A DNA stretch of 21,260 nt. It comes from an uncultured Porphyromonadaceae bacterium (GTDB lineage: Bacteria; Bacteroidota; Bacteroidia; Bacteroidales; Paludibacteraceae). Below the pieces are notes generated by a model. The model searched no databases, was not told the origin of the DNA, and saw only the letters and a program-made list of their open reading frames with translations. The stretch lies in NCBI GenBank assembly GCA_937898265.1, contig CALEJM010000314.1, positions 1-21,260 on the forward strand. The letters run 5' to 3'. The translations under genes were made by a program, and so were the position numbers. Positions 4,361 to 21,260 of the stretch are shown one piece after another (position 1 is the stretch's first letter; each line of letters begins with the position of its first letter).

Positions 4361-6241
4361 TTATTCTTGTTTCAACATAACGACCTCACCATTGGTGGTG
4401 GTGACAATCCAGGTGTTGTTGCCGAGTGCCACGATGGTGTTGATGGCTGCGTTGCCGATTTTGTGTTGCCAAAGCAAGGTGCCGTCGGTGGTGTTGAGTG
4501 CACAGATGACGCCGTTCTTGCTTCCAGAGATGACAATGCCGTCTCTCTCTACAATGTTGCAAGGGTTGGAGTCGTCACCGTATTGTGCGTCGGTAATCCA
4601 ACTTGGCTTGAACGTAGAGGTATTCAAGGCGTAGACTTTGTCTTTCTTAGTGCGTGTGTAAACGGTGGTGTTGTCGGTGCTGATGCCGATAGATTCGGCT
4701 GCGTTAGTTGCTGGAGACGACTGCCATACGGTGCGACCTGTAGTCTTGTTGACTACAAGGATGGAACCGCTGACAATGAGGTAGAGGTTGTTGTCGTCGG
4801 CAACGGGAGATACAGCGCCGATCGAGTTGGAGTTTTCGAGGTTTTGTTGCCAACGGATAGCACCTGTGGACATGTTCAATGCATAGATCCTGCCTGTCCA
4901 TGTGGTGAAATAGATGGTTTTGTCGGAAATCAATGGTTGGCAGCTGACAGCACCTTCGATGCCACGTGTTTGCCAAACCTCAGCGCCGTCGCTGAGGTTC
5001 AAGGCCAAGAACTTACCATTGTTGCAAGCGACGTAGACGATGTTGCCGTTGATAACTGGTGTTGAGCTGAGTGGTTCGCTGGTGATGACGTCCCACGCTG
5101 CAGTGCCATTCTTGGCGTTCAGGCAATAGATATGATGGTTGGCGTCGGCAACAACAACGTATTGCTCGTTGGCTGCTGGAGCACCAAGGATAGAACCAGA
5201 GGTGCTGAACGACCAACTTTTAGCTCCTTTGGCCATGGTGAGGCAGACTACGCCACCGTTGTGGGTGGCTACATAGATGTTCTCGCCAACAACTGCGGCT
5301 GAACCGTAGATGGCTTCGTTGAGATTGATGTTCCATTTCTCTACGATGTTCTTGTAGTTTTTGTTGACTGCCATACTTGGACGGAGTTTCAAGTTGCCAT
5401 CATTATAGAATTTCTCTCCGGTTGAGATAGCTGTCCATTGCTCTGGGTCCTGACCAAGGCGTTTGTGGAAGAAGTGGAGACTGTCTGAAGTCATGGTACA
5501 CAGTGTGTAAGATGCCAACGGACGATTGTCGGACTTCGATGTGCCACAGATAATGCCGATGATATTGTCGTTGTTAACCACAAGGTTGTGGTGATAGTGA
5601 CCGTTGATAATGGCTTGGAGATTGCGTCGACGAACCACATCGGTGAGTTGATACCAGTTGTCGCAGTCAGGTGATTGCAGTGGATGATGAGTTACAACAT
5701 AGAGTGGTGTCTTCTTCGAGGTGTTCTTGAGTTGCTTCTTGACCCATTCAATGTCCTCTGGTGCAATGTGAGCGTCGCCGTTACGAAGTTGGGCGGTGTT
5801 GACTCCCAAGAAGAGATTGCCGTTGCAGAGCAGACGGAAGTGGGTGTCGCCAAACACTTCGCGGAAATAGGCGTCTCCCACGCCGTTGTTCAAGCAGTCG
5901 TGATTGCCCGGAACAACATAATATGGGAGTTTGGTCTTGTCAAGCATCTGCTTCACCTCTTTCATTGAAGCCATGTCGCCACGATGGGCTATGTCGCCAA
6001 GAACAAGAATGAAGGCAATGCCGTCTTGCTTGGTGATGTCTTTGGTCAATGCCAAGAAGTCGGTCTTGCACTGAGGATTGTCGACAGAGTAGTGAACGTC
6101 GGCAATGACGGCAAAACGAAGCGTGGCGTCGTTGAGTGCGTCGTATGGTTTTTCTGTCTTGTCGTTTGACTGCTGAGCGTTTGCAACAAAAGGAATCGCC
6201 ATCAGCAAAACGAGTAATAACCACTTGAAATTGTATTTCAT
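4361..6241 (-). CDS. Secreted calcineurin-like metallophosphoesterase fused to a PQQ-type beta-propeller
   Basis: 626 residues from the ATG at 6241-6239. I prefer this start to the one 11 codons upstream because it begins a clean signal peptide (MKYNFKW, hydrophobic core, VANA-QQ) and avoids overlap with the upstream gene. Residues about 40-225 are a metallophosphoesterase with all metal-binding motifs: D48-x-H50 (ADVHYS), GD in LGDIAHRGD (82-89), GNHD (112-115), THH (184-186) and GHYHHN (214-219). From about residue 295 to the end there are repeated PQQ-like propeller blades: pairs such as GENIYVATHNGGVVCLTMAKG, NGNIVYVACNNGKFLALN, DKTIYFTTWTGRIYALNMSTG and ISGSKNGVICALNTTDGTLLW. The predicted place is the periplasm or cell surface; the substrate cannot be read from sequence. 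A phosphodiesterase or phosphatase joined to a scaffold or ligand-binding propeller is the simplest reading. It lies 14 bases after the 132-residue gene and 8 bases before the PorE-like gene. Confidence 0.9.
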   Translation of the reverse strand: MKYNFKWLLLVLLMAIPFVANAQQSNDKTEKPYDALNDATLRFAVIADVHYSVDNPQCKTDFLALTKDITKQDGIAFILVLGDIAHRGDMASMKEVKQMLDKTKLPYYVVPGNHDCLNNGVGDAYFREVFGDTHFRLLCNGNLFLGVNTAQLRNGDAHIAPEDIEWVKKQLKNTSKKTPLYVVTHHPLQSPDCDNWYQLTDVVRRRNLQAIINGHYHHNLVVNNDNIIGIICGTSKSDNRPLASYTLCTMTSDSLHFFHKRLGQDPEQWTAISTGEKFYNDGNLKLRPSMAVNKNYKNIVEKWNINLNEAIYGSAAVVGENIYVATHNGGVVCLTMAKGAKSWSFSTSGSILGAPAANEQYVVVADANHHIYCLNAKNGTAAWDVITSEPLSSTPVINGNIVYVACNNGKFLALNLSDGAEVWQTRGIEGAVSCQPLISDKTIYFTTWTGRIYALNMSTGAIRWQQNLENSNSIGAVSPVADDNNLYLIVSGSILVVNKTTGRTVWQSSPATNAAESIGISTDNTTVYTRTKKDKVYALNTSTFKPSWITDAQYGDDSNPCNIVERDGIVISGSKNGVICALNTTDGTLLWQHKIGNAAINTIVALGNNTWIVTTTNGEVVMLKQE

Positions 6242-6255
6242 AATCAAAGAGTTGT

Positions 6256-6654
6256 CTAATTGTTTTCTAACCAAAGCTGTATCTCTTTCTTGCGCTCTTC
6301 GCGCTCAAGTGAAAGGGTTTGTTCGGTTTTTTCTATGTCGTTGTAGAGTTCAAGGAGCGACTCTGCAATTTGTCGTTTGTCGATACTGTAGTCGAAGGTG
6401 ATAAGTTCCTGATAAAGCAACTCTGCCAACAGCTCTTTCTGCATGCTTACCTTGGTTGGGTCGCTGAAGGCTTTGAGTGCGGTGCCCAAGTTGTTGGTCA
6501 AGAAGAAAGCACGGTTGTTCTCCAGAAATCGGGTGTAGAGAGAGTCAATGTCATGTTTCACGTCTTCTTTTCCAAATTTCTTTTTGTAGAGAATCTGGGC
6601 CAATGCCTGAAAGAAATCTTCGATGATAGCTAACAGATAGTCGCGTTTTATCAT
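6256..6654 (-). CDS. Conserved hypothetical cytoplasmic helical protein
   Basis: 132 residues with no signal peptide or membrane segment. It begins MIKRDYLLAIIEDFFQALAQ, which resembles the start of the DUF6483 family, then is almost wholly alpha-helical and charged, with a Glu/Lys-rich C-terminus (EREERKKEIQLWLENN) likely to form a coiled coil. I do not recognise a function. It is 16 bases downstream of nadC and 14 bases upstream of the phosphoesterase start, so it is very likely co-transcribed with them. It could be a small adaptor or tetratricopeptide-like protein; nothing in the sequence points to catalysis. Confidence 0.75.
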   Translation of the reverse strand: MIKRDYLLAIIEDFFQALAQILYKKKFGKEDVKHDIDSLYTRFLENNRAFFLTNNLGTALKAFSDPTKVSMQKELLAELLYQELITFDYSIDKRQIAESLLELYNDIEKTEQTLSLEREERKKEIQLWLENN

Positions 6655-8223: not shown

Positions 8224-8266
8224 TGAGAAGAAAATAAATTAATTGGAACTTTATAAATCACTGAAT

Positions 8267-9604
8267 ATGAATAAACAGCCAATTCCTGTTCTGCTGCTTA
8301 CCGGTTATCTCGGTAGCGGAAAGACTACACTTGTCAATCATATCCTCTCCAACGAGAGAGGCATTAAGTTTGCAGTCATCGTTAACGATATCGGCGAGGT
8401 GAATATCGATGCCGATTTGATTCAAAAAGGTGGTATCGTTGGACAGGCTGACGATTCCCTCGTTGCGCTTCAAAACGGTTGTATCTGCTGTACGTTGAAG
8501 ACCGATTTGATTAAGCAAGTTGAGGAAATCGTCTCAACCCACGCTTTCGATTATATCGTTATCGAAGCGAGCGGCATCTGCGAACCAGAACCTATTGCTC
8601 AAACACTTGTGGCTGTGCAACATGCAAGTCGCCAAGAGTTTGGTTTTGAACTATGCCGTCTTGATTGCGTCACCACCGTGGTTGATGCCCTTCGTCTACA
8701 AAGTGAGTTCTCCAATGGTGTTGCCTTGCGAGCAGAACACGATGAGGAAGATATCGAGAACCTGATTATCCAACAGATTGAATTCTGTAATGTCATTCTC
8801 TTGAACAAGGCTTCTGAAGTTTCTCCTGAAGATTTGGCTCAAATCAAGCAGATAATCAAAGCAATACAGCCTAACGCAAAAATCATTGATACCGATTACG
8901 CCAAGGTAGAGTTGACTGAATTGCTCAACACCAATATGTTCGATTTCACCAGTACTACGTTGTCTTCAACATGGGTGCAAGAGTTTGAACGTGAGGTTAC
9001 AGAAGAGGAGGAACGTGAGGCTCATCTGATTCACGACGAGCACGAACATCACCACCATCATGACCACGAACACGAACATTGTCATGAGTGCGAAGAAGAG
9101 CATGAGCATCATCACCATCACGATCATGAAGACGACGAACACGAACACCATCATCACGAAGAGCATGAGCATGACGAACATGGTCATCACCACCATCATC
9201 ATCACCATCATCACGATGGCGGTGAAGTGGAGGAGTATGGCATCGGCACTTTCGTTTACTATCGTCGTGATGCTTTCGATATGGGAAGATTTGAGGACTT
9301 TGCTCTCCGTCAACTCGACCGTAGTGTGATTCGTACCAAAGGCATCTGCTATTTCAAAGAGAATCCAGACATGTCGTATATGTTTGAGCAGGCTGGCGTG
9401 CAGAAAAAACTCGTTGAGTCGGGTCTCTGGTTGGCCACCGCTCCACAGAACGAGTTGGAAGCTATGATTGCTAACGACCCTTCCATTCTTCGCGACTGGG
9501 ATCCTGTCTATGGCGATAAGATGCAAAAGCTCGTTTTCATCGGAAAAAACATGAACAAAGAGGCTATCATCCAAGCTTTAGATAATTGTCTTGTAAAAAA
9601 GTAA
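8267..9604 (+). CDS. G3E-family (CobW/COG0523) GTPase with histidine-rich metal-binding loop
   Basis: 445 residues from the ATG at 8267; an in-frame TTG at 8243 is possible but less likely. Residues about 8-20 hold the Walker A loop GYLGSGKTTLVN, followed by NDIGEVNID, the family metal-binding motif NGCICCTLK (CxCC) and EASGICEP. The C-terminal third is a CobW_C domain (GTFVYYRRDAFDMGRF to KLVFIGKNM). Between the two domains, residues 253-316 contain about 37 His plus many Asp and Glu, and two Cys. COG0523 proteins are GTP-driven metallochaperones or inserters for zinc, cobalt or iron-type sites; the His loop suggests zinc (or nickel/cobalt) storage or delivery, but the metal and client are not shown. 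No cobalamin or nitrile hydratase genes are near. A strong terminator follows at 9623-9670, so it is monocistronic. Confidence 0.93.
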   Translation: MNKQPIPVLLLTGYLGSGKTTLVNHILSNERGIKFAVIVNDIGEVNIDADLIQKGGIVGQADDSLVALQNGCICCTLKTDLIKQVEEIVSTHAFDYIVIEASGICEPEPIAQTLVAVQHASRQEFGFELCRLDCVTTVVDALRLQSEFSNGVALRAEHDEEDIENLIIQQIEFCNVILLNKASEVSPEDLAQIKQIIKAIQPNAKIIDTDYAKVELTELLNTNMFDFTSTTLSSTWVQEFEREVTEEEEREAHLIHDEHEHHHHHDHEHEHCHECEEEHEHHHHHDHEDDEHEHHHHEEHEHDEHGHHHHHHHHHHDGGEVEEYGIGTFVYYRRDAFDMGRFEDFALRQLDRSVIRTKGICYFKENPDMSYMFEQAGVQKKLVESGLWLATAPQNELEAMIANDPSILRDWDPVYGDKMQKLVFIGKNMNKEAIIQALDNCLVKK

Positions 9605-11737: not shown

Positions 11738-11772
11738 ATCCCCTTTTGCCTCTATGCAGAAGGGGATTTTTT
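11738..11772 (+). terminator. Rho-independent terminator of the cyclophilin operon
   Basis: ATCCCCTTTTGC (11738-11749) pairs with GCAGAAGGGGAT (11756-11767), 12 pairs with one G-U, around a 6-base loop; T at 11767-11772. Confidence 0.9.
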
Positions 11773-11859
11773 GTCCATGAAAAAATATTTTCGTTTCACT
11801 GCAACAAAATGGCATGTTTTTTCGTCATACATATAGAAAACAATAAACAACAAACAACA

Positions 11860-12492
11860 ATGAAGCGTATCTCGCTATTAATCGTCGGCGCACTTCTGAC
11901 GCTATGTGCCATGGCACAAGACAACAACACCGCCCAACCATCTTATCGTCATCACTTCGAAGTATCTGTGGGCGAACCGTTCTCAACACTCTGGGGCTTT
12001 AATCTCCAAAGCACTACAAACAAGAAGAACGACCACTTTTTCCATGAATTCGGCGGAGAGTTTCGTCCAGCCATGAACAAAGGCTACGAAGACGAGACCT
12101 TCGTTCCACCATTGACAGTCAGCTATTTCTATCAGCCTCTCCATTGGTTGCAGGTGGGTGGTGAAATCGGCACCTTCTCCGTAAAAACCCGTGAACGCTA
12201 TTGGAACGACAAGACCTATGCCCATTGGCTTGAGACGAATCTCTACCTTGCCATCGGCGCCCGTTTCAACTACTACCACAAGAATATCACCGACCTCTAT
12301 TCTGGTTTGACCCTTGGCTGCAACGTTCGCATGGCTTCCACCCATCAGGACGCTATGGTCTTCTCACAAGCACTGTTCTCCTGGCAACTCACTATGTTAG
12401 GCATTCGTTTCGGTCGTCAGGTTTATGGTAATGTGGAGATAGGCTACGGCTACAAAGGTCTTGTTTCTGCTGGCATCGGTTATCGTTTCTAA
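11860..12492 (+). CDS. Outer-membrane beta-barrel protein candidate
   Basis: 210 residues from the ATG at 11860, chosen because it begins a signal peptide (MKRISLLIVGALLTLCAMAQ). The mature part alternates hydrophobic and polar residues in strands rich in Tyr, Phe and Trp (for example HHFEVSVGEPFSTLWGF, LTVSYFYQPLHWLQVGGEIG, LYLAIGARFNYYHKNI, NVEIGYGYKGLVSAGIGYRF). It ends in Phe, the usual C-terminal signal of outer-membrane barrels. The size suits an 8-strand barrel. No specific family is recognised and the cargo is unknown. It has its own transcription unit after the terminator at 11738-11772. Confidence 0.75.
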   Translation: MKRISLLIVGALLTLCAMAQDNNTAQPSYRHHFEVSVGEPFSTLWGFNLQSTTNKKNDHFFHEFGGEFRPAMNKGYEDETFVPPLTVSYFYQPLHWLQVGGEIGTFSVKTRERYWNDKTYAHWLETNLYLAIGARFNYYHKNITDLYSGLTLGCNVRMASTHQDAMVFSQALFSWQLTMLGIRFGRQVYGNVEIGYGYKGLVSAGIGYRF

Positions 12493-12582: not shown

Positions 12583-13224
12583 ATGATGAAACGCTTATAT
12601 TTTGTCTCGTTGCTGATGTTGTTGTCAGTTGCCGCCTTTAGTCAGAGCTATGGCGAGGATGGCTACACTTATTATTATGACTACGATCATCGCGTTGTCG
12701 TTCGTTCGTGCATTGCGTGCAATATGGATTATCAAGACCTCTGGAATGGTGATTATGTGCGCGTTATCAGCGATTATGTCTACATCTACCGTGATGGAAA
12801 ACGCGTTTTGTACGGCAATAAGGTGTGGTTGGAACACACTGGAGACTATACTGTTCAACTGGGCGACTATCTCTATCTCTACGATAGCGATGGTCGTCGG
12901 AAAGGTCCTTATGGACAAATGATTTATGCCTTGTGGAATGGCTGTTACACCGTGAAACAATCAGGCTACTGGTATCTTTACGACAATGATGGCGATCGCA
13001 TCAGTGGTATATATTCGTCTGGCGACTACGATATTAAAATCTTTTGGAACGGATATTATCTTATCAAACAGGGTGAATACTATTACGTTTACAAACCAGA
13101 CGGCACCCGACTTTCTGCCGCTTATTCCACCGAAGAACCGCTGCTGATGAACTCAGGCAGTTTTCGTTGTCTCCAAGGAGGGTATTACAACCTGATTGAC
13201 ACTGACGGACGACGGGTTCATTAA
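12583..13224 (+). CDS. Secreted tyrosine-rich repeat protein, function unknown
   Basis: 213 residues (212 if the second ATG at 12586 is used, which fits the AGGAGG better). Residues 1-21 are a signal peptide (ending AAFS-QS). After a Tyr-rich start and a CxxC (Cys43, Cys46) there are five imperfect repeats of 31-37 residues, with their Gly at about 56, 87, 120, 157 and 192. The shared pattern is (W)NG-x-Y-x-V, a short spacer, Y-x-Y-x-YD-x-DG-x-R. Examples are LWNGDYVRVISDYVYIYRDG, NGCYTVKQSGYWYLYDNDGD and WNGYYLIKQGEYYYVYKPDG. The pattern resembles WG/KWG-type and cell-wall-binding repeats, which make small beta-sheet units, but I cannot assign a family. It is likely exported to the periplasm or beyond. 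It stands alone, closed by a terminator. Confidence 0.8.
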   Translation: MMKRLYFVSLLMLLSVAAFSQSYGEDGYTYYYDYDHRVVVRSCIACNMDYQDLWNGDYVRVISDYVYIYRDGKRVLYGNKVWLEHTGDYTVQLGDYLYLYDSDGRRKGPYGQMIYALWNGCYTVKQSGYWYLYDNDGDRISGIYSSGDYDIKIFWNGYYLIKQGEYYYVYKPDGTRLSAAYSTEEPLLMNSGSFRCLQGGYYNLIDTDGRRVH

Positions 13225-18933: not shown

Positions 18934-20007
18934 TTAGTGTTTGTTGGAGATTTTCTTCTGCCACAACCAAGCGTTGCGCAAGGTGTCTTCCAATGGGGTT
19001 GTTGCCTCCCATTTGAGATTTTTGATGGCTTTAGCTGGGTTGACCCATACTTTCTCAATCTCACCCTTCTTGCGTTCTTCAATTTCATAAGGCACTCTGA
19101 CGCCTGTTGCTTCCTCAAAACGTGTGAGGATGTCCAACATAGAGTAGCCGTTGCCTGTTCCTATGTTATAGGTTTCCAATCCTTTGACTTTCTTTTTGCA
19201 GATGCGTTCAACGGCCTTGACATAGGCTTGAGCAAGGTCAACAACATCAATATAGTCTCGAATGATGGTTCCGTCTGGGGTGTTGTAGTCGTTACCGAAA
19301 ATCTTGATGTGCTCACGCTCACCCACAGCCACTTGGGTCATCAAAGGCACAATGTTGCTTGCGGAACCATGTGGATACTCACCAATTTCGCATGAAGGGT
19401 GTGCACCAATAGCATTATAGTAACGCAATACAATACCTTGAATATCTTCCTTAGAAGCAATGGAGTCAGCAAGTATTTCTTCGGAAATCTGCTGGGTGTT
19501 GCTGAAAGGAGAGAGTGGTTGACGAAGAGGTGTCTTCTCGTCAATTGGTGTTTTGGTGATTTGTCCGTAAACCGAGCAGGAAGAGGAGAGCACGATGCCG
19601 TGAATTTTATGTATTGGCAACAATTCCATCAGATTGATGATTGTCATGAGATTGTTGCGGTAGTATTTGGTTGGGAAGTTTCTCGAGTCTCTTACTGCTT
19701 TGTATGAGGCAAAGTTGACCACACATTTAATATCTTCATGTTTGGCCAAGAAATGGTCCATTGATACAAAATCGATGCAGTCAATGTTTTCAAACAGTGG
19801 TTTTTTGCCAGTGATTCTCTCGATGCCATAGAGCACATCGATGTTGGCATTGGAAAGGTTGTCAATTACAAGGACTTCATAGCCAGCTTGCATCAACTCT
19901 ACAACAGTGTGAGAACCAACATACCCCAGACCGCCAGTTACCAACACCTTGTCGGTGGAGGAGAACATGTCCAGGAATTTTCTCCAGTTGCTTTTCTTTA
20001 CTTCCAT
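18934..20007 (-). CDS. GalE-like extended short-chain dehydrogenase lacking the catalytic Tyr and Lys
   Basis: 357 residues. After a 20-residue N-terminal extension (MEVKKSNWRKFLDMFSSTDK) comes the NAD-binding LVTGGLGYVGSHTVVELM (GxxGxxG at 25-31). It follows UDP-glucose 4-epimerase closely: VIDNLSNA, NFASYKAVRDS, LSSSCSVYG (Ser143 = E. coli Ser124), LRYYNAIGAHPS, IFGNDYNTPDGTIIRDYIDVVDLA and TYNIGTGNGYSMLD. The active-site YxxxK (E. coli SPYGKSK, Tyr149/Lys153) reads SPFSNTQ: Phe168 and Gln172. Both residues needed for hydride-transfer chemistry are gone, and I checked this on the DNA (GAA at 19504-19506 and CTG at 19492-19494 on the plus strand). A normal epimerase is therefore doubtful; sugar-nucleotide binding may remain. 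The gene overlaps the nucleotidyltransferase by 10 bases. Confidence 0.9.
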   Translation of the reverse strand: MEVKKSNWRKFLDMFSSTDKVLVTGGLGYVGSHTVVELMQAGYEVLVIDNLSNANIDVLYGIERITGKKPLFENIDCIDFVSMDHFLAKHEDIKCVVNFASYKAVRDSRNFPTKYYRNNLMTIINLMELLPIHKIHGIVLSSSCSVYGQITKTPIDEKTPLRQPLSPFSNTQQISEEILADSIASKEDIQGIVLRYYNAIGAHPSCEIGEYPHGSASNIVPLMTQVAVGEREHIKIFGNDYNTPDGTIIRDYIDVVDLAQAYVKAVERICKKKVKGLETYNIGTGNGYSMLDILTRFEEATGVRVPYEIEERKKGEIEKVWVNPAKAIKNLKWEATTPLEDTLRNAWLWQKKISNKH

Positions 20008-20906
20008 AATTGTTCTGGATAAACACCTTTAGCGATGAGTTCTTTAATTTTTTCAATGGTTGTTGGGCGGTCTTCGGCATAGGTGACGCCAAACCATTTT
20101 GCGGTTGTCTCCAAGACTTCACATGTGACGGTTTTGTTGACAATCAGCTCGTTGACCATTGATGGAATATAGAATTCGGATTTCATCTCGTTGCCTCTCT
20201 CGTTGAGGAAACGGACAAAGGCATCTTTTGAATATTTGAAATAATCGGGTGTAAAGCCCCACATATTCATTGATACTGGTGTGGTGGCTGGCAATTCAAC
20301 GCGTGCTCCGTCATCTGCCAAGTAGGAGATAACGCCATTTTCATCGCGTCCGATTTTTGTGCGCTCGTTGATGGTGGAAAGATGACGGTTTTCGTCAACA
20401 CTACATTCGCCACGACTTACAGTGCCGTTCTCCGAGAGGGTGTTGCCAAGTTGGTAGCCTACCATACAGTATTTGTTCTGACTGTTGGCCACGTTTTTCA
20501 AGAAGGAGGAGAGGACTACGAAGGCGTCTGAACCATAGAAGTCGTCGGCATTGATAACAGCAAAAGGTTCGTTAACAACATTTTCTGCCATCATGACAGC
20601 ATGGTTTGTTCCCCAAGGCTTTTCTCTACCTTCCGGACATTGGAAGCCAGCTGGCAATGTAGTGAGTTCTTGAAAAACGACCTCAACGTCTACCTTGCCT
20701 TCATATTTTGACAGTACGTGACTTCTAAATTCTTGTTCGAAACTGTGGCGGATGATGAATACTACTTTGCCAAAACCGGCGCGGATGGCATCGTAGATAG
20801 AGTAGTCCATGATGGTTTCGCCATGAGGACCGATGCCGTCTAATTGTTTCAATCCACCATATCTGCTACCCATTCCGGCAGCAAGAACAACTAATGTAGG
20901 TTTCAT
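19998..20906 (-). CDS. Sugar-phosphate nucleotidyltransferase family protein
   Basis: 302 residues, cytoplasmic. The N-terminus is the NTP-binding signature VVLAAGMGSRYGGLKQLDGI (LxxGxGxRxxxxxK), followed by IMDYSIYDAIRAGF, GTNHAVMMAENV, and AVINADDFYGSDAF with the metal-binding Asp. These fit NTP_transferase proteins that join a sugar-1-phosphate to UTP, dTTP or GTP. The RYGGLKQ variant (rather than RxxPxTK) marks a Bacteroidota-type subgroup, whose sugar I cannot tell; other members lie by an anomeric kinase, which is not seen here. The C-terminus overlaps the start of the GalE-like gene by 10 bases, so the two proteins probably act on the same sugar nucleotide. The next gene upstream stops 22 bases before it. 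Confidence 0.88.
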   Translation of the reverse strand: MKPTLVVLAAGMGSRYGGLKQLDGIGPHGETIMDYSIYDAIRAGFGKVVFIIRHSFEQEFRSHVLSKYEGKVDVEVVFQELTTLPAGFQCPEGREKPWGTNHAVMMAENVVNEPFAVINADDFYGSDAFVVLSSFLKNVANSQNKYCMVGYQLGNTLSENGTVSRGECSVDENRHLSTINERTKIGRDENGVISYLADDGARVELPATTPVSMNMWGFTPDYFKYSKDAFVRFLNERGNEMKSEFYIPSMVNELIVNKTVTCEVLETTAKWFGVTYAEDRPTTIEKIKELIAKGVYPEQLWK

Positions 20907-20928: not shown

Positions 20929-21260
20929 TTATTTGATGATATTACCCAAGATTGAGCGAAGGATAGTGCGAGTGGCAGATGCTGTTGCGTTGCTTACTGC
21001 CTTGCCTGCTGCGTTTTTGGCTTTGTCGGCCACAGTGCCCTTGGTTTTCTTGCCTGTGACAGTGTTGGCAATTTCATTGCCTAAGCTGCGGGTGATGCTG
21101 GTAACTGCTGCACCGACTGCAACGCCAAGAATACTCTTACCAGCTTTTTTGGCAATGCCGCTGCCTTTCTTCTCGGCAGCCTTAGCCTCTTTAGCTTGCG
21201 CTTTCTCCAATTCAGCTTGTTCTTTGGCTACTGCAACTTCTTGTGCAATAGCCTCGCTTT
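20929..21260 (-). CDS. C-terminal end of a probable HerA-like (DUF853) ATPase
   Basis: The frame is open through the right edge; 109 complete codons are seen before the stop at 20929. The visible part is an Ala/Glu/Lys/Gln helix (AIAQEVAVAKEQAELEKAQ, then AKAAEKK), a Gly/Ala segment (SGIAKKAGKSILGVAVGAAV), and the closing SATRTILRSILGNIIK. This coiled, Ala-rich tail ending in 'R-x-I-L-R-S-I-L-G' matches, as I recall it, the C-terminus of DUF853 (HerA-like, YjgR-type) ATPases. The ATPase core would lie outside the window, so the name is an inference from the tail alone. A weak ATCAAAT / ATTTGAT hairpin at 20916-20937 overlaps its stop. Confidence 0.5.
   Translation of the reverse strand, partial: SEAIAQEVAVAKEQAELEKAQAKEAKAAEKKGSGIAKKAGKSILGVAVGAAVTSITRSLGNEIANTVTGKKTKGTVADKAKNAAGKAVSNATASATRTILRSILGNIIK

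Follow-up and report, generated by a model that had tools for sequence, protein, structure and literature searches.

The window analysed here, a stretch of 21,260 nucleotides from an uncultured Porphyromonadaceae bacterium, encodes a homologue of UDP-glucose 4-epimerase (GalE) in which both members of the catalytic Tyr/Lys pair are replaced, by Phe168 and Gln172 respectively. The replacement is fixed in a clade carried by a small group of uncultured Bacteroidales. Both GalE itself and the requirement for its Tyr/Lys pair are textbook knowledge. Since the protein, which we call FQ-GalE, fails the Ser-Tyr-Lys triad test, we class it as a candidate GalE-derived SDR pseudoenzyme and not as a GalE. 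In our judgement it is likely, and by a good measure, that epimerase activity has been lost. A natural, fixed double loss of Tyr and Lys in which most of the site is kept offers a direct test of the fold without catalysis. The features concerned are as follows.

18934..20007, minus strand: FQ-GalE, a GalE homologue without the catalytic Tyr/Lys pair, 357 amino acids (open reading frame, TIGR01179, AlphaFold2, Foldseek)
19411..19413, minus strand: codon of Ala199 (E. coli Pro180), clade-fixed, adjoining the substrate Asn198; Pro in 151/151 canonical rows
19492..19494, minus strand: codon CAG of Gln172 (E. coli GalE Lys153); Gln in 4/4 clade members, Lys in 151/151 canonical rows
19504..19506, minus strand: codon TTC of Phe168 (E. 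coli GalE Tyr149); Phe in 4/4 clade members, Tyr in 151/151 canonical rows
19579..19581, minus strand: codon of Ser143 (E. coli Ser124), kept; Ser in 4/4 clade members and 151/151 canonical rows
19915..19935, minus strand: dinucleotide-binding loop GGLGYVG, residues 25-31, kept (sequence and alignment)
19998..20906, minus strand: upstream nucleotidyltransferase, 302 amino acids, whose end overlaps the FQ-GalE start by 10 nucleotides (ATGGAAGTAA) (PF00483; 3pnn, E 2e-127)

The FQ-GalE frame starts with ATG and has zero internal stops. Homology to GalE is full-length: the protein scores 331.5 bits against the GalE equivalog model TIGR01179, which is above the cut-off of 262.3, and its closest PDB sequences are 3enk and the E. 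coli GalE chains. The AlphaFold2 (AF2) model (pLDDT 90.1, pTM 0.90) has GalE 3enk as its top Foldseek match (TM 0.92/0.97), and every one of the best 50 of 2000 Foldseek matches is a UDP-glucose/galactose 4-epimerase entry. The first-pass annotation had stated that the NAD loop and the active-site Ser are retained and that the frame is whole. All of this holds: the loop reads TGGLGYVG (residues 24-31), Ser143 lies in the segment SSSCSVYG, and the frame is intact in four sequence clusters.

The YxxxK motif of canonical GalE has become F168-S-N-T-Q172, and both new codons are a single nucleotide away from a Tyr and a Lys codon, respectively. We note that the E. coli reference chain used for residue mapping, 1kvu, itself has Phe at position 149. 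The loss of both residues, already reported in the first-pass annotation, is borne out by the alignment to E. coli GalE and by a wider canonical set in which Tyr and Lys are each present in 151/151 rows (117 proteins and 34 loci, at least one locus duplicated; L005, L062 and L096 left out). Judged from the aligned residues, the contrast between the F/Q and the Y/K state is far beyond chance. The Ser of the Ser-Tyr-Lys triad is retained in the F/Q clade and the Tyr and Lys are substituted in 4/4 members. A misalignment hiding another YxxxK was considered and rejected at the sequence level, as the columns of S166, P167, N170, T171, Q173, I174 and E176 match nearly all canonical rows. Y102 and Y197 were rejected as replacement tyrosines, neither being conserved within the clade, and the sequences of the F/Q members showed no other Tyr/Lys pair.

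The protein search, of which the best 120 of 7999 scored candidates were considered, gave three close matches to FQ-GalE with identities of 90, 77 and 71%; the next ones were at 57-58%. In the alignment of the window protein (P0001) with these 120 matches, F/Q was found in exactly 4 of 121 proteins, i.e. in P0001 and its three nearest proteins P0002-P0004, and Y/K in 117. A sequencing error, which close relatives with YxxxK would have suggested, is excluded because the three nearest proteins all have the same Phe and Gln, so that the state occurs in four sequence clusters. The expectation that the SPFSNTQ proteins form a clade in which the F/Q state is fixed proved correct (4/4 members). The support was 100 in the quick tree and 100/100 in the careful tree, the latter built from 55 of 57 rows after L082 and L107 were lost for too few filled columns. 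The stem of the clade is long, 0.87 and 0.62 changes per site in the quick and the careful tree, respectively.

Other F/Q lineages may exist beyond the best 120 matches, since only these were considered and the region search was nearly blind. With residues 158-204 it recovered P0002 alone among 9 candidates and missed P0003 and P0004, and it is thus uninformative on other F/Q lineages. No relative was found in genome contigs or in viral contigs with the clade alignment and two N-terminal patterns each. Whole-genome searches of 299, 101, 250, 393, 358, 2 and 120 genomes (overlapping sets) revealed no F/Q member; the cut-offs in E were strict in the searches of 299, 250, 393 and 358 genomes, and the search of 393 matched nothing and is uninformative. 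The 358 genomes are all those available for the nearest family, i.e. the group of G450; two records labelled Paludibacteraceae at NCBI, L025/G005 and L068/G011, belong to it. Acquisition of a foreign GalE by horizontal transfer is disfavoured, as the GalE trees and the nucleotidyltransferase tree both place the window near the L069 lineage with moderate support (85 and 85/91 as sister in the GalE trees, 84/88 in the nucleotidyltransferase tree).

The distribution of changes along the protein was investigated at the 165 positions whose conservation in the 151 canonical rows reaches 90% or more. All four F/Q members keep 104 of these 165, and at 24 the canonical residue is present in no member. 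At 16 of these 24 positions a single new residue is common to all four (30, 97, 98, 101, 107, 109, 113, 155, 168, 169, 172, 199, 226, 292, 322 and 345). The further changes fixed in the clade include A101S, G169S, P199A and V109R, and positions 101, 109 and 199 are presumably near the catalytic site. Each F/Q member departs from the conserved residue at 35-46 of the 165 positions (36 in the window protein), the canonical median being 2 and the worst canonical case 21, and at 13-16 of the 80 positions where the 151 canonical rows show no variation at all. The high similarity that the first-pass annotation saw outside the catalytic pair was, in other words, overstated.

The ligand-binding residues are largely retained. 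In terms of E. coli equivalents, G7, G10, G13, D31, N32, D58, K84, N99, S124, Y177, N179, N199, F218 and R231 are kept in 4/4 members, and N35 and F80, on the NAD-adenosine side, in 3/4. The equivalent of Arg292 reads K/K/K/R in the four members and that of Asp295 E/D/D/E, which are mostly conservative changes, and P0004 has the extra losses N53S and F99C. We take N199, F218, R231, R292 and D295 to be UDP-sugar contacts; the role of N179 does not rest on this assumption. In the GalE of Bifidobacterium, the triad residues (Ser125/Tyr150/Lys154) are numbered one higher than in E. coli. According to the available part of a report on that enzyme (PMC6668579), its nicotinamide ribose is contacted by Lys154 and Tyr150, the pyrophosphate by Lys85, the adenosine part by Asn33, Asp59 and Asn100, and O6 of the sugar by Asn180. 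Set beside the list of kept residues, these contacts locate the loss in FQ-GalE on the nicotinamide-ribose and proton-transfer side.

The rate of change was compared with that of the neighbouring nucleotidyltransferase. P0003 and a nucleotidyltransferase (P0124) 77% identical to that of the window apparently share one 2149-base contig and bear the same organism label, from which linkage is inferred. Between the window and this pair the identity is 76.2% for GalE and 77.2% for the nucleotidyltransferase. The 7 canonical pairs in the 75-80% nucleotidyltransferase band (from 190 pairs of 20 loci) have GalE identities of 70.0-77.6%. L005, L062, L081, L096, loci without both genes and matches of fewer than 280 columns were left out, and the comparison comprises this one F/Q pair; P0002/P0122 and P0004/P0123 were unused, their shared contigs being unproven. 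Between the window and the unused pair P0004/P0123 the identities are 70.9% for GalE and 79.8% for the nucleotidyltransferase, so that here GalE would have diverged further than the gene assumed to adjoin it. The mean identity of the window to the 20 canonical loci is 53.3% for GalE and 61.1% for the nucleotidyltransferase, the lowest canonical GalE pair being at 57.2%. As read from these identities and, for the later pace, from one pair of inferred linkage, the clade underwent a burst on its stem and then changed at an ordinary pace. The GalE identity of that pair lies within the canonical range, so constraint seems to have returned after the F/Q switch. Moreover, the four members are invariant at 120 of the 165 canonically conserved positions, compared with 29 of the 85 variable positions (Fisher p 6e-9).

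FQ-GalE occupies a familiar gene position, with ATGGAAGTAA serving both as its start and as the end of the nucleotidyltransferase gene. The PDB relative of the nucleotidyltransferase, 3pnn, bears only the name 'Conserved domain protein'. Of the 80 loci found with the nucleotidyltransferase, 16 have a GalE immediately downstream, no more than about 100 bases away, and Tyr and Lys are present in each of the 17 loci that gave any GalE match. The other 64 of the 80 have no GalE directly downstream (some end at a contig edge), and so the nucleotidyltransferase can work without a linked GalE. In the 31 nearer GalE loci (L091-L121, with 1.5 kb flanks) Y/K is found in 31/31 and the nucleotidyltransferase is also present in 25/31. 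In L091-L095, L103, L105 and L106 the junction reads ATGGRARTRA, and the aligned genes have the same overlap as in the window. Position, junction and gene trees together indicate that FQ-GalE descends from, and stands in the place of, the ordinary GalE of its lineage and has lost the catalytic pair. With Y/K relatives of up to 57% identity at the same gene position, this gives a before/after pair in which to study the turning of a metabolic enzyme into something else.

Several other features of the window may be mentioned. On the plus strand, 8243-9604 encodes a CobW-family GTPase (PF02492, PF07683) with a very long middle stretch rich in His, Glu and Asp, a composition that suggests metal binding. 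A calcineurin-like phosphoesterase is fused with a PQQ-type beta-propeller in a single frame at 4361-6274 on the minus strand (PF00149 with PF13360/PF13570). The plus-strand frames 12583-13224 and 11746-12492 have no Pfam match at 1e-5; by eye the former shows a repeating pattern and much Tyr and Asp. At 20929-21260 (minus strand) lies the tail, rich in alanine and lysine, of a gene that continues beyond the window; this 93-residue part has no Pfam match, and we take it to resemble the end of a HerA/DUF853-type ATPase.

In a sample of 120 genomes of the nearest family a GalE match (1e-40) was found in 111, of which 105 have exactly one and six have two. The altered GalE would thus usually be the only copy. 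At 1e-140 the 358 genomes of the family yield matches in G450 and G419 alone, both with Y/K, the relative from G450 being 57% identical to the window protein. Among close relatives, G493 has a first GalE (L095) that falls in the sister group of the F/Q clade, and a second (L124, C112:2800-4400) with Y/K and 43% identity to the window protein; the triad region of L124 reads FASSATVYG, as against FSSSCTVYG. G001 also has a second GalE (46%). G457 shows one GalE match; its GalE locus and that of G001 are identical in the 600-base stretch that was compared.

Two further GalE-like proteins of the nearest family, P0242 (L136:7320-8330, genome G503) and P0243 (L137:6368-7339, genome G422), have intact frames and are 77% alike. 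In both the Tyr is kept, the Lys has become Leu, the Ser segment is deleted and the substrate Asn is lost. They adjoin lptB (TIGR04406 364.7 and 364.3 bits, cut-off 240) and succinate dehydrogenase genes. For the canonical GalEs nearest to this Y/L type, no lptB link was found in the 6 regions examined. G503 and G422 also carry a Y/K GalE of another type, and their nucleotidyltransferase is located elsewhere, with no GalE in the stretch examined around it. The Y/L protein occurs in 2 of the 358 genomes at 1e-78, the genome of the query included. The Y/L stem is very long (2.13) and the tree puts it apart from the F/Q clade; a common origin, which the tree does not favour, is yet not rejected (AU p 0.195). 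The two types are alike in a similar N-terminal extension, the lost Lys, Ala at the Pro180 position and an intact frame. They differ in that the Y/L proteins have the Tyr but neither the Ser segment nor the substrate Asn, and have lptB as neighbour instead of the nucleotidyltransferase.

As regards function, an SDR fold that has lost its catalytic pair and is conserved in a clade is what the alignment, the trees, AF2 and Foldseek jointly find. The pair is gone and its loss fixed in the clade, the frames are whole and the gene overlaps that of the nucleotidyltransferase; on these grounds the non-catalytic role proposed in the first-pass annotation remains the leading reading. In the available part of the respective sources, the Y149F mutant of a related enzyme, the Bacillus UDP-glucuronate epimerase, retains NAD, with a rate reduced about 1200-fold and an activity that rises with pH (PMC7984243), and the Lys132Gln mutant of the SDR relative eugenol synthase is inactive with NADP bound, the Gln reaching the nicotinamide ribose via a water (PMC1991597). 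By analogy, FQ-GalE is expected to bind NAD with little turnover, proton transfer being lost. It would then be a former UDP-glucose 4-epimerase with no or trace epimerisation, kept for a non-catalytic job, perhaps together with the nucleotidyltransferase; we give this reading a little less than an even chance. The fold and ligand pocket would have been kept for that job, and the protein would most likely hold a UDP-sugar and NAD(H) and act on or with the nucleotidyltransferase, which the overlapping start makes the first candidate partner. Possible roles are those of a product buffer, a feedback sensor or a stabilising subunit. Counting against this reading are the altered equivalents of Arg292 and Asp295, the extra losses in P0004 and the 64 of 80 nucleotidyltransferases without an adjoining GalE. 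A wider proposal is that GalE became a pseudoenzyme at least twice in one Bacteroidales family (F/Q and Y/L), and that the F/Q form, in place, is a UDP-sugar/NAD(H)-sensing regulatory subunit of the nucleotidyltransferase. We hold it to be doubtful; if it were true, the F/Q enzyme would have become a sensor of its own pathway.

FQ-GalE might instead be a relic under relaxed selection, an epimerase made dispensable by the lack of a galactose need or by another GalE and slowly being lost without a new function. The many departures from conserved residues and the long stem, which also fits a period of relaxed selection, point that way, as do G503 and G422, where a much more degenerate GalE-like protein beside a separate Y/K GalE is the pattern expected after replacement. 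We consider a relic unlikely nevertheless, given that four frames are intact at mutual identities down to 68%, that the rate relative to the neighbour gene is ordinary in the one pair of inferred linkage, and that conserved positions remain conserved, with Phe, Gln and 14 other new residues common to all four members.

GalE is a dimer in known structures, and one may also think of an inactive partner subunit in a mixed dimer with a second, working GalE of the same cell. The second GalEs of G493 and G001 would suit such an arrangement, but G457 shows a single match and the chance appears slim. The single GalE in most genomes bears on another possibility, namely a slow but sufficient epimerase in which the part of the Tyr is taken by Ser143, water or hydroxide and the nicotinamide ribose is held by Gln172: losing the only epimerase would matter. 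Ser143 is indeed kept, and Y149F of the related epimerase has about 1/1200 of the activity left (PMC7984243); however, the Lys is lost too, its change to Gln abolished activity in the related SDR (PMC1991597), and no reason is given why selection should fix both losses, all of which makes this account improbable. Much the same low probability attaches to a change of chemistry, in which the enzyme would act without the pair on a UDP-sugar or on a different ligand bound in the same pocket. The clade-fixed changes at or near the pair (101, 109, 168, 169, 172 and 199), the remaining Ser and substrate Asn, and the precedent of eugenol synthase, described as an active SDR relative without the Tyr, agree with it. 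On the other hand, eugenol synthase needs the Lys that FQ-GalE does not have, as far as that source goes (PMC1991597), and the 16 shared changes bring in no new Tyr, Lys or His, the charged ones being R109 and two E/D swaps.

P0003, the one F/Q member with a public name, is labelled UDP-glucose 4-epimerase GalE, and all four members pass the curated equivalog cut-off (331.5, 337, 333.6 and 320.4 bits), so metabolic models using such names may err. No paper on a GalE pseudoenzyme was found among those listed for the open-licence PMC literature.

FQ-GalE agrees with GalE (TIGR01179; E. coli 1kvu/1a9y, Burkholderia 3enk) in its fold and length, in the NAD loop and the active Ser and, for the most part, in the presumed UDP-sugar contacts; it differs in having Phe and Gln in place of Tyr and Lys, along with the four further clade-fixed changes named above. 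NmrA and HSCARG/NMRAL1, both regulators, and MAT2B are SDR proteins that act via partner binding and NAD(P) sensing, according to the available text of a paper on them (PMC3793261); they share the SDR fold but lie outside the GalE subfamily, and the partner of FQ-GalE is a putative one. MAT2B moreover retains the SYK triad (PMC3793261), unlike FQ-GalE, and the title of a later paper states that it stabilises but does not regulate MAT2A (PMC8638259). The laboratory mutants BcUGAepi Y149F, E. coli GalE S124A/Y149F (1a9y, 1a9z) and eugenol synthase K132Q each copy one of the two F/Q changes, and NAD(P) is described as staying bound in the first and the last. In none of the three were Tyr and Lys changed together, whereas in FQ-GalE both changes are present, natural and fixed.
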